From: an uncultured Fusobacteriaceae bacterium
Lineage (GTDB): Bacteria > Fusobacteriota > Fusobacteriia > Fusobacteriales > Fusobacteriaceae
Direction of reading: 5' to 3'
Length of the DNA stretch: 64,000 nt
Assembly: GCA_947038515.1 (NCBI GenBank)
Contig: CAMQWJ010000008.1
Location: 1-64,000, forward strand
Under the pieces are notes generated by a model. The model had not been told where the DNA came from, made no database searches, and worked only from the letters and a program-made list of their open reading frames with translations. Positions 15,950 through 60,601 of this stretch are shown piece after piece. A program made the position numbers and the translations under genes. The number at the start of each line of letters is the position of its first letter. The first letter of the stretch is position 1.

Positions 15950-16885
15950 CTACACCTTTTCTACTACACGTAATTTTGAAGATCGTGATCTATTATTTAT
16001 TTCTAACTCCTCTTTTGAAGGGGTTATAGGTTTTTTTGTTATAAGTCGTATTGTCGGTTTATGATTACAAATACAAATAGGAAGTCTTGGAGGACATATA
16101 CAACCAGTAGAAAAATTTTTAAACATAGTTTTAACAATTCTATCCTCTAAAGAGTGGAAAGTTATTACGCTTAATCTTCCTCCAACTTTCAAGAGATCGA
16201 TAGATTTATTAATTGCATTTTCTAAAACTTCCAGTTCTTTATTAACTTCTATTCGTAATGCCTGAAATGTTTTTTTAGCAGGATGTTTTTCACTTCTACC
16301 TGGATAAGCCCTTTTAATAATTGTAACTAAATCACCTGTTGTTTCAATAGGTTTTTCACTTCTAGTCTGACAAATAATACGAGATATTTTTCTAGCAAAA
16401 CGTTCTTCACCATACTCAAAAAGTATTTTAGAAATACTACCTTCATCATAAGTATTTACTATTTCATAGGCTGAAATTCCTGAACTATTATTCATTCTCA
16501 TATCTAATCTCGCTTCATATCTATAAGAAAAACCTCGTTCAGGGTCATCCAATTGATTTGAAGAAACGCCTATATCCATTAATATTCCATCAACTTTATC
16601 GTACCCTGCCATATAGATTACTTTTTCTAAATTTTCAAAATTACTTTTAAATACTTTCCAATTTTTATATCCTTCAAGACGCTTTTTAGCATATTCTATT
16701 GCTGCATCATCTTGATCTATGGAGATTAAAACTCCCTTTTCAGAAAGTTTTTTTAATATCCCTTCTGAATGTCCGCCTCCACCTAAAGTACAATCAACAT
16801 AGACTCCATCTGGATTCAATACTAAAGTTTCTAAAGTTTCAGAATATAAAACTGGTATATGATAATCTTCAAATTTATTTTCCAT
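15950..16885 (-). CDS. rsmH: 16S rRNA (cytosine1402-N4)-methyltransferase RsmH (MraW)
   Basis: RsmH methylates C1402 in the ribosomal P site. Family blocks are intact: YHIPVLYSETL at the start, VDCTLGGGGHSEGIL (SAM motif I), GILMDIGVSSNQLDDPERGFS, KKTFQALRIEVNKEL, and VITFHSLEDRIVK. I chose ATG at 16885 (MENKFEDYHIPV, 311 residues) because the family begins a few residues before YHIPVL. An upstream in-frame ATG at 16912 lies only 2 nt from the SD and inside a hairpin. The SD-hairpin-ATG leader is described separately. Confidence 0.95.
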   Translation of the reverse strand: MENKFEDYHIPVLYSETLETLVLNPDGVYVDCTLGGGGHSEGILKKLSEKGVLISIDQDDAAIEYAKKRLEGYKNWKVFKSNFENLEKVIYMAGYDKVDGILMDIGVSSNQLDDPERGFSYRYEARLDMRMNNSSGISAYEIVNTYDEGSISKILFEYGEERFARKISRIICQTRSEKPIETTGDLVTIIKRAYPGRSEKHPAKKTFQALRIEVNKELEVLENAINKSIDLLKVGGRLSVITFHSLEDRIVKTMFKNFSTGCICPPRLPICICNHKPTIRLITKKPITPSKEELEINNRSRSSKLRVVEKV

Positions 16886-16920
16886 TTTACATGTATGATA
16901 TTTTTGTATCATACCCTCCT
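16886..16920 (-). promoter_or_regulatory. SD-hairpin-ATG translation-initiation element of rsmH
   Basis: Minus strand: AGGAGG (16915-16920) is directly followed by an 8-bp perfect hairpin GTATGATA-CAAAAA-TATCATAC (16893-16914), then 7 nt, then the ATG at 16885. The linear SD-ATG gap is 29 nt; with the hairpin folded it is 7 nt. The same layout occurs before dnaB and exbB. Confidence 0.7.
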
Positions 16921-16980: not shown

Positions 16981-17018
16981 CCTAAAGATAGAGAAGCTAT
17001 AGCTTCTCTATCTTTAGG
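16981..17018. repeat. 38-bp perfect palindrome between yggT and rsmH
   Basis: Positions 16981-16999 are the exact reverse complement of 17000-17018 (arms begin CCTAAAGATAGAGAAGC). The minus strand continues TTAAAAAG, so there is no strong U run for the upstream yggT transcript. On the plus strand it is followed by TATTTTAATT. It may be a weak terminator, an RNase III-type stem or a protein site. Confidence 0.75.
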
Positions 17019-53191: not shown

Positions 53192-54529
53192 TTAGTTAAC
53201 TCTATCCGTATAATCTGCAAATTTAGTCAACTCATGGAAGAATCGCAACTGTGCCATTCCAACAGGTCCATTTCTATGTTTACCTATAATTACTTCAGTT
53301 ATACCCTTATCTGGACTATCTTCATTATAATAATCATCTCTATATAAAAACAGCACTATATCTGCATCCTGCTCAATAGCTCCTGATTCTCTAAGGTCTG
53401 AAAGCATTGGTCTTCTATCAGCTCTAAGTTCTGGTGCTCTTGATAGCTGTGACAATGCAATTACTGGAATATCTAACTCTCTTGCTATTCCTTTTAGTGA
53501 TCGTGAAATATCAGATATTTCTTGTTGTCTATTATCAGATTTTCCACTTCCATTTATAAGTTGTAAATAGTCAATTACAATCATATCAAGCTTATTCGCA
53601 GCTTTTAGTCTTCTTGCAATTGCACGGATTTCAAGAACATTTACATTAGGTGTATCAGCAATACTAATATTTGCACCTGCTAGTCTACCTGATGCAATTC
53701 CTAACTTTCCCCATTCTTCCTCTTGTAAGAAACCGTTTCTAACTTTTTGAAGTGGTACTCCTGATTCAACAGCTAAAAGTCTTTGTAATAATTGAGAGGT
53801 TCCCATCTCTAAACTGAAAATTAGAACACCTTTTTTAGAAGTTACCGCAGCATTCAAAGCTAAATTTAGAGCAAGGGCTGTTTTTCCCATTGCTGGTCTA
53901 GCTGCTAATATAATTAAATCAGAAGGATGAAACCCATTTGTCATTGCATCATAATTTTTAAATCCTGAAGAAATTCCTGTTGTTTCACCTTTATTTTCTG
54001 AAGCTTTTTGTAGTCTTTCAAATTCCAATTCAATTATATCTTTAATATCTAAAATATCTTTTGATGTTTTAGTCTCAGCAATTTTAAAAATCAAACCTTC
54101 AGCTTTATCAAGTATTGTATCTACATCTTCATATCCTTCATATGCTAATTCAACGATTTTTGTTCCAACTTCTCCCAGCTTTCGTAAAATAGATTTTTCT
54201 TTTACAATATTTGCATAATTTAATATATTCGCAGCTGTTGGAGTATCCTCTATTATTTCAAAAAGAATTTTTTCTCCTCCAACTTCATCAAATTTTCCAT
54301 TTTTTTTCAAAGATTCCATAATCAGTATTGGATCAATAACTTCACTTTTTCCATATAGTTCTAGCATTGATTCAAATATTGTTTTATATGCATTTCTATA
54401 AAAATATTCTGGTCGTAAAATCTCTACAACATCACTAAAAACTTCAGGCTTTAAAAACACTCCACCTAAAACTGCTTTTTCTGATTCCATACTGCTTGGT
54501 ATTTTTCTTAGATTTTCAATATCATTCAT
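53192..54529 (-). CDS. dnaB: Replicative DNA helicase DnaB
   Basis: This hexameric 5'-3' helicase of the replication fork has 445 residues. The N-terminal primase-interacting domain (SSMESEKAVLGGVFLKPEVF) precedes the RecA-like motor: Walker A LAARPAMGKTALALNLA near 209, Walker B DMIVIDYLQLI, and SQLSRAPELRADRRPMLSDL. The partner primase gene is at 4.1 kb. It lies 58 bp after rplI. Its start codon sits 30 nt from a perfect SD, separated by a hairpin (listed separately). Confidence 0.97.
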   Translation of the reverse strand: MNDIENLRKIPSSMESEKAVLGGVFLKPEVFSDVVEILRPEYFYRNAYKTIFESMLELYGKSEVIDPILIMESLKKNGKFDEVGGEKILFEIIEDTPTAANILNYANIVKEKSILRKLGEVGTKIVELAYEGYEDVDTILDKAEGLIFKIAETKTSKDILDIKDIIELEFERLQKASENKGETTGISSGFKNYDAMTNGFHPSDLIILAARPAMGKTALALNLALNAAVTSKKGVLIFSLEMGTSQLLQRLLAVESGVPLQKVRNGFLQEEEWGKLGIASGRLAGANISIADTPNVNVLEIRAIARRLKAANKLDMIVIDYLQLINGSGKSDNRQQEISDISRSLKGIARELDIPVIALSQLSRAPELRADRRPMLSDLRESGAIEQDADIVLFLYRDDYYNEDSPDKGITEVIIGKHRNGPVGMAQLRFFHELTKFADYTDRVN

Positions 54530-54565
54530 TTTAATTATATATGATATTTTATATCATATCCTCCT
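54530..54565 (-). promoter_or_regulatory. SD-hairpin-ATG translation-initiation element of dnaB
   Basis: Minus strand: AGGAGG (54560-54565) abuts a 9-bp perfect hairpin ATATGATAT-AAA-ATATCATAT (54539-54559), then 9 nt, then ATG at 54529. The linear gap is 30 nt and the folded gap 9 nt. The ATG inside the 5' arm opens a two-codon frame (M-I-stop). Confidence 0.7.
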
Positions 54566-59949: not shown

Positions 59950-60561
59950 CTATTTTCTATATAAATTAATAAGTTCTGTACTAGTTTTCTCCATTAAATT
60001 TACTGAAGAATCGCTTTTTTGATTAAAATAATTATAAAAAATTAATGCTGGTATGGCAACTATAAGTCCACCTGCTGTTGTATATAGAGCTTGTGAAATT
60101 CCATTTGCTAAAACTGCAGGATCTCCAGTACCGTGAAGCGCTACTGCCTTAAAGGCTTGTATCATTCCTGTAACAGTTCCTAAAAGTCCTAATAAAGGTG
60201 TTGCATGGGCAACAATTGCTAAAACCCACATATTTCTCTCTAAATTAGGAATTTGTCCCAATCCAGACTCCCTTGCTTTTTCTTCTAGTAAGTTTACATC
60301 TACTATATTATTTATATATGCATAAGCAAGAACATCTTTTGCTACTCTTGATGCAGCTGATTTATTTTCATTTAAAGCAATTATTGCAGCTTTTATTTCT
60401 TTAGCTTCAATTTTTTGTTTTATTTCAGCTCTAATTTTAGAATAATCACCTTTTTCATTTATTTTAAAATATAAAAATCTTTCTATAACTACACCTAATC
60501 CAACTATTGACATAATTAGAATACAATACATTAACGCTCCACCTTTAACTAACCATTCCAT
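59950..60561 (-). CDS. exbB: ExbB/TolQ proton channel protein
   Basis: A 203-residue protein with three membrane helices: an N-terminal one (ALMYCILIMSIVGLGVVIERF) and a C-terminal pair (ILAIVAHATPLLGLLGTVTGMIQAF-like and ISQALYTTAGGLIVAIPALIFYNYF). The motif PLLGLLGTVTGMI is diagnostic. ExbB forms the pentameric channel around ExbD. Its start codon is separated from its AGGAGG by a hairpin (listed separately), an arrangement shared with rsmH and dnaB. Confidence 0.95.
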   Translation of the reverse strand: MEWLVKGGALMYCILIMSIVGLGVVIERFLYFKINEKGDYSKIRAEIKQKIEAKEIKAAIIALNENKSAASRVAKDVLAYAYINNIVDVNLLEEKARESGLGQIPNLERNMWVLAIVAHATPLLGLLGTVTGMIQAFKAVALHGTGDPAVLANGISQALYTTAGGLIVAIPALIFYNYFNQKSDSSVNLMEKTSTELINLYRK

Positions 60562-60601
60562 TTTTTATTTGTATAGTATACCTTATATACCATACCCTCC
60601 T
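60562..60601 (-). promoter_or_regulatory. SD-hairpin-ATG translation-initiation element of exbB
   Basis: Minus strand: AGGAGG (60596-60601) abuts a 10-bp hairpin GTATGGTATA-UAAGG-TATACTATAC (60571-60595, one G-U), then 9 nt, then ATG at 60561. The linear gap is 34 nt and the folded gap 9 nt. Confidence 0.7.

Follow-up and report, generated by a model that had tools for sequence, protein, structure and literature searches.

How can a gene be translated when its Shine-Dalgarno (SD) sequence lies 29 to 34 nt from its start codon? The question is raised by three minus-strand genes, rsmH, dnaB and exbB, in a 64,000-nt stretch of DNA from an uncultured Fusobacteriaceae bacterium (contig CAMQWJ010000008.1 of assembly GCA_947038515.1, positions 1 to 64,000; G000:C8 in the present genome set), referred to here as the window and belonging to a 1.78-Mb genome with a GC content of 28.7%. 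Read directly, each of the three leaders consists of AGGAGG, an abutting hairpin of 8-10 bp and the ATG. These leaders and nine others of the same genome are likely to be solitary left-end remnants of insertion sequences (IS) of the IS110 family, that is, of elements with a DEDD recombinase guided by a bridge or seek RNA, which in this case targeted the SD itself.

The leaders of the window and their family

The rsmH leader is made up of an SD (16915..16920), the hairpin GTATGATA-CAAAAA-TATCATAC (16893..16914, predicted fold of -7.9 kcal/mol at 37 °C) and a 7-nt spacer (16886..16892), giving a linear SD-ATG gap of 29 nt before the start codon at 16885 of a 16S rRNA methyltransferase gene (15950..16885; PF01795, E=2.5e-121) whose best matches come from metagenome-assembled genomes of Fusobacteriaceae. 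The hairpin end, TATCATACA (16900-16892, its last base being the first A of the spacer), is identical to the end that IS110 elements of related genomes conserve on the side facing the gene. In the dnaB leader the SD (54560..54565) is followed by ATATGATAT-AAA-ATATCATAT (54539..54559, -5.8 kcal/mol), and the replicative helicase gene (53192..54529; PF03796, E=2e-106) starts at 54529, 9 nt past the hairpin and 30 nt from the SD. For exbB, encoding a MotA/TolQ/ExbB proton channel (59950..60561; PF01618, E=2.8e-29), the SD (60596..60601) abuts GTATGGTATA-TAAGG-TATACTATAC (60571..60595, -10.8 kcal/mol), which includes one G-U pair, is followed by AAA and presents an IS110-like end, TATACA; the ATG at 60561 again lies 9 nt past the hairpin, with a linear gap of 34 nt. 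The layout, with its hairpin-ATG distances of 7, 9 and 9 nt, had been described in an earlier reading made from the letters of the window (the sequence-only reading) and is present as claimed, and the identities then given to the three genes are upheld by the Pfam matches. The rsmH SD is also preceded, at a distance of about 60 nt, by a perfect 19-bp inverted repeat, CCTAAAGATAGAGAAGCTATAGCTTCTCTATCTTTAGG (16981-17018), which is probably the terminator of the preceding gene.

The genome-wide results given here come from pattern searches, with the reversed pattern as control. The pattern AGGAGG-N0-4-RTGRTA-N2-18-TAYYAY matched the genome 12 times against once for its reverse, and the ATG of a real open reading frame lay downstream in all 12 cases, which supports the existence of a genuine hairpin family and answers the comparison with a control count that the sequence-only reading had named beforehand. 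The 12 genes share no common function: besides RsmH, DnaB and ExbB, their products resemble a peptidase-like protein, an M20 peptidase, an FprA-like flavoprotein, ThiD, a sugar epimerase, FabH, CbiN, FabZ and AroC, these latter names being judged from the translations. The stem core, RTGRTA...TAYCAY, is specific to the family, and hairpins without RTGRTA after AGGAGG were near the shuffled expectation among the 80 unique AGGAGG...ATG contexts listed. When the SD was relaxed to GGAG, 16 matches were found against 7 in the control; 11 of the 16 were AGGAGG cases already counted, and at least one of the five additional matches was an ordinary gene start.

Beyond this genome, the strict pattern occurred 54 times in 98 Fusobacteriota genomes against 5 in the control, and in 18 genomes of clostridial relatives twice against 5, neither of the two having the SD-hairpin-ATG layout. 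Among the matches listed from IMG/VR viral contigs, the layout was present in 0 of 80 loci, and a phage origin of the hairpins was rejected on that account. These figures also bear on the idea that the leaders are chance palindromes, which would be common enough as short sequences in so AT-rich a genome. It is hardly credible against the genome and phylum counts, which refute it, the position of all 12 copies at gene starts and the absence of the layout from those viral loci.

A scan of 20 loci against Rfam returned no relevant family at the gathering score, the sole match being a cobalamin riboswitch (RF00174, 102 bits) at L091:451-617, upstream in a cbiN-type locus that bears a spacer hairpin. 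Two further groups of leaders were encountered in the phylum. Seven loci of one genus (L114, L148, L150, L151, L167, L168 and L169) carry paralogous secreted or surface proteins with a near-invariant short SD-hairpin leader, reading ATTATGATATTTTTATCATAA in six of the seven, and four permease-type genes (L111, L112, L113 and L166) have, ahead of the start and after the SD, a GTGATA-TATCAC hairpin of 5-6 bp that is conserved in four genomes and may be an old member of the family or an independent case.

IS110 elements with a hairpin end

A link to mobile elements was found in G059, where one leader is present in three identical copies and the identity extends through a 1552-bp IS110-family element (PF01548, E=6.7e-39). 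The copies end exactly at AGGAGG-hairpin-CATACAAG, identity stopping directly after TATCATACAAG, and are followed by unrelated sequence; the element is antisense to the downstream gene and splits an SD. At the MerR gene the empty site is preserved in G060 as TAGGAGGTAATAAT-ATG, and in G059 it has the form TAGGAG^[IS]^G, where TAGGAG borders one end of the element and GTAATGAT-ATG borders the opposite end. Insertion within the SD in this manner (AGG^AG) is seen for full IS110 copies of seven related genomes, and seven distinct end sequences (G057, G059, G006, G018, G027/G037 and G092) share one layout: AGGAG(G or TG)-hairpin-TATCATACA-core AG, then a few nucleotides and mostly the ATG, with differing internal sequences and, in one G006 copy, a core GG instead of AG. 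In the orientation of the element this end reads core CT, then TGTATGATA.

The non-coding region (NCR) of these elements contains candidate guide segments, picked out by eye, that read TTAAGGAG in G006, TAAAGGAG in G018 and CTAGGAG in G059, and these are the complements expected of the right target guide for the respective split sites, CTCCTTA, CTCCTT(A/T) and CTCCTA. Insertion at a putatively guide-recognised target was thus found for the G006, G018 and G059 elements, and empty sites for MerR and coaBC, in all cases with the elements of relatives. In the NCR of L311, L312 and L313 the presumed target guide is itself SD-like (UAAGGAG), an RNA that might conceivably pair with the anti-SD of 16S rRNA. 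A different IS110 element of G075 (L315, L321 and L325), whose NCR has TTCTTCCTCCT, inserts at the first AG of AGGAGGAA, so that the SD of the downstream gene stays intact, 4 nt before the ATG, and the end of the element is without such a hairpin. There is, therefore, an association in which SD-cutting elements carry a replacement SD and hairpin and the SD-sparing one does not; it is an association and no test, because this is the one element that represents the sparing geometry.

Orthologues of 15 hairpin genes, located with a chimeric protein query, indicate that the solitary hairpins too were inserted. Same-genus orthologues with an alignable start have the same start codon and an ordinary short SD without any hairpin, and the hairpins are accordingly taken as lineage-specific insertions. 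The dnaB orthologue of G001 and the exbB orthologue of G002 have identical start positions, short SDs and no hairpin; the rsmH orthologues, whose N terminus is variable (7-24 residues preceding YHIPVLY), likewise show a short SD and no hairpin. Start codons could not be aligned for the matches of cbiN, of secD in G000 and of pulD. Leaders that keep the long gap after losing the pairing, which the sequence-only reading had named as a finding against it, were not seen among these orthologues, those alignable and free of a hairpin being short-gapped as well. The junction can be read at coaBC in genus g12, where the empty site reads AAGGAG^ATATATCA-ATG in G075 and G072 (G024 is similar) and the occupied one AAGGAG[GGTATGATAAAAATATATTTATTTATCATACAA]ATATATCT-ATG in G013 (G073 is similar), the insert running GGTATGATA..TATCATACAA and being followed by ATATATCT-ATG. 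Judged by comparison of the two states, the coaBC hairpin is a clean insertion within the SD.

The same orthologues bear on the proposal that translation begins at an RTG within the hairpin, yielding an N-terminal extension or a leader peptide. Such a triplet occurs in nearly every copy, 2-4 nt after AGGAGG, and the rsmH copy is both open and in frame, the ATG at 16912 lying inside the hairpin and 2 nt from the SD as the sequence-only reading had noticed. Only in 2 of the 12 genes is it in frame, however, with a spacing of about 2 nt from the SD, and for nearly all genes the alignment of orthologous proteins begins at the downstream ATG, least clearly for rsmH. Moreover, the RTG is accounted for as the complement of CAT/CAC at the IS end, and initiation at this site is very improbable. 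A leader peptide or alternative start was rejected as a candidate, given the random frame and the disagreement of the orthologues.

A proposed route from the element to the solitary hairpin

The origin of the leaders from SD-targeting IS110 elements can be pictured as a short sequence of events. Insertion inside the SD at the core AG (TAGG^AG-G...ATG), with the transposase antisense to the gene, as seen in related genomes, would leave the arrangement TAGGAG-[far IS end] ... AGGAGG-hairpin-[AG]-spacer-ATG, in which the gene-facing end supplies the interrupted gene with a new SD and with a hairpin that would fold the extra nucleotides away, so that a normal spacer remains. The IS body could then be lost by a deletion that joins the host's split AGGAG, at the far end, to the element's AGGAGG, giving flank-AGGAGG-hairpin-spacer-ATG and reconnecting the gene with its promoter. 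Under such a route the sequence would be native as far as the SD; an example is the epimerase locus L086, in which the reading frame upstream apparently ends 3 nt before AGGAGG and the upstream sequence of the orthologue is similar. Selection would afterwards maintain the pairing of the stem, because an open stem leaves some 30-40 nt between SD and AUG; the 3' arm (TATCATACA) would owe its constant sequence to its past as an IS donor end, the 5' arm being constrained to pair with it.

Several solitary copies retain the signature of the element. In G023 the hairpins of L119 and L144 match IS110 end hairpins almost exactly, and many solitary copies of relatives (L097, L098, L117, L162 and L300) have the full end layout AGGAG(G)-hairpin-ATACA-core AG. 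In the window's genome, rsmH and exbB match the IS110 end up to ATACA, with the core AG absent, and the other copies, dnaB included, have diverged. IS110-family elements are very probably the source of the solitary hairpins, which are best read as what remained after a deletion of the IS body.

A number of observations weigh against this origin. The window's genome has neither an IS110 gene (PF01548) nor the IS110 NCR motif, which means that its source element has either been lost or escaped notice, and the window loci encode no DEDD/Transposase_20 recombinase and hold end remnants at most. The ACA end is kept in 2 of the 12 leaders of this genome (rsmH and exbB), and their hairpin loops are unlike any known IS110 end; for this genome, the IS110 link is consequently one of family resemblance. 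TATCATACA occurs once in the window, at rsmH, against a chance expectation of 0.7, and this lone occurrence is within chance. In addition, a gene interrupted by a full IS110 in one genome and preceded by the solitary hairpin in a second was not found, the coaBC junction is 1 nt off the predicted product, and some solitary copies of genus g12 have about 45 bp of upstream sequence in common, a feature left unaccounted for by a simple deletion, so that the hairpins may also have spread in other ways in that genus. Similar units of about 80 bp stand before unrelated genes at five g12 loci (L104, L145, L147, L165 and L300), the best preserved reading AAAAATATTTATAGGATATTTAAAATAAATAAGA-AGGAGG-hairpin-ACAAG, and they may include a promoter or represent a short, internally deleted element.

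Genus g12 is also where an autonomous tiny palindrome, similar to a repetitive extragenic palindromic (REP) element or a miniature inverted-repeat transposable element and inserting 3' of GGAG independently of IS110, would find its examples. Near-identical hairpins of 27-29 nt, with those 45 bp upstream, precede unrelated genes there, and the coaBC hairpin entered its SD cleanly; REP elements (REP/RAYT) are known as dispersed copies of a short hairpin with a GGAG-like foot (GGAG or GTAG). Away from SDs, however, the palindrome is at chance level, and its 3' end and target agree with the ends, core and guide of IS110, which makes an IS110-independent palindrome decidedly unlikely. In the window's genome ATGATA...TATCAT without a required SD was found at 24 places against 18 in the control, 8 of the 24 being the SD cases, and a dispersed REP-like repeat was rejected for that genome.

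The hairpin as a probable folded spacer and its known relatives

What the insertion means for translation is suggested by the spacing in 40 non-redundant leaders, in which the linear SD-ATG gap of 36.5 +/- 4.5 nt falls to 9.4 +/- 1.4 nt when the hairpin, as predicted from pairing, is excised, a value that resembles the SD-ATG spacing of ordinary genes of the window. The claim that folding restores a normal distance is borne out by these means. Pairing was tested on core-anchored arms, an alignment of IS ends with MAFFT having put the 5' arms out of register, and only pairs outside the search pattern count as evidence, because the pattern fixes the core positions. Compared with partner shuffles of the same leaders, the outer pair -2 was formed in 28 of 40 against 16.2, the inner pair 7 in 36 against 20.8 and the inner pair 8 in 29 against 21.8 (P of about 2e-4, 2e-4 and 2e-3), the inner pairs being somewhat inflated by the choice of the 3' arm that maximises the stem and the test as a whole leaning upward with related sequences. 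Orthologues likewise show pairing kept while the bases vary, as the sequence-only reading had noted between genes, with a G-C to C-G double change between L097 and L117 and an A-U to G-U change between the OCD orthologues L378 and L389. The stems are probably kept under selection, and the persistence of pairing through compensatory change, together with the constant excised spacing, argues that the hairpin works as a folding spacer; it would fit a spacer folded on the ribosome, by analogy with phage T4 genes 25 and 38.

The same conservation could be expected of a host-encoded regulatory hairpin that gates the translation of a regulon in response to temperature, a helicase or a protein, and was only later captured by IS110; its specific core and the pairing maintained in orthologous pairs would suit it. 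The genes are unrelated, though, no hairpin is found in the aligned same-genus orthologues, and the IS donor end accounts for the constant 3' part of the core, so that this account is unlikely, and the gating by temperature, a helicase or a stem-reading protein put forward in the sequence-only reading is not supported, given the first two of these points. As to temperature, melting would put the SD farther from the AUG, contrary to the action of usual thermosensors, and the stems are predicted to be still folded at 45 °C. An RNA thermometer with its SD sequestered in the stem was rejected as a candidate, the SD lying outside the stem in the layout and in the predicted folds.

It is reasonably probable that an IS110 lineage evolved an end that rebuilds the ribosome binding site (RBS) it cuts, bringing its own SD and a hairpin that removes donor sequence from the spacing; essential genes would then tolerate the insertion, and the end would persist as a working RBS after loss of the body. 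IS110 elements targeting translation starts (IS900) and hairpin-split RBSs (T4) are already known. The open-access literature searched did not yield an element end that provides its target gene with a new RBS and built-in folding spacer and then persists in essential genes. If true, the arrangement would be the start-site counterpart of an intron, folded out instead of spliced, joining those two known phenomena in one mechanism, and an RNA-guided mobile element could aim at the SD, a sequence common to most genes, without killing them. It would offer, in essential genes, dozens of natural test cases of how initiation proceeds over a folded spacer, and it could help in choosing where bridge-RNA recombinases may land without harm. 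It bears too on start-site annotation and RBS models, by which SDs 30-40 nt from the AUG are missed.

Among the systems to which these leaders can be compared, REP elements have in common with them a GGAG-like foot, a short hairpin and dispersal, and differ in being intergenic and not tied to start codons, whereas the present copies exceed chance at SDs only. The layout itself, which the sequence-only reading had supposed undescribed, has a precedent in T4 genes 25 and 38, where translation is enhanced by a hairpin between SD and AUG that shortens a linear gap of 27 or 22 nt to 11 or 5 nt (Nivinskas 1999; Malys and Nivinskas 2009, as reviewed in PMC3014915); what is not covered by that description is a recurring core, a mobile origin and dispersal over unrelated bacterial genes, T4 having two phage genes with none of these. 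IS621 and the other IS110 elements guided by bridge or seek RNAs share with the elements described here the DEDD recombinase, the long non-coding left end with its guide, the CT core (AG on the gene strand) and the short subterminal ATA/TAT repeat of IS110 donors (PMC11208160, PMC11187229); IS621 targets REP elements, and the available parts of these descriptions make no mention of an RBS at the element end. A further comparison is with IS900 of Mycobacterium avium subsp. paratuberculosis, an IS110-family element that targets host translation initiation signals (Doran 1997, cited in PMC8141618). As summarised there, IS900 uses the host signals to express its own hed gene, whereas here the end of the element would give the host gene an RBS and hairpin and leave remnants behind.
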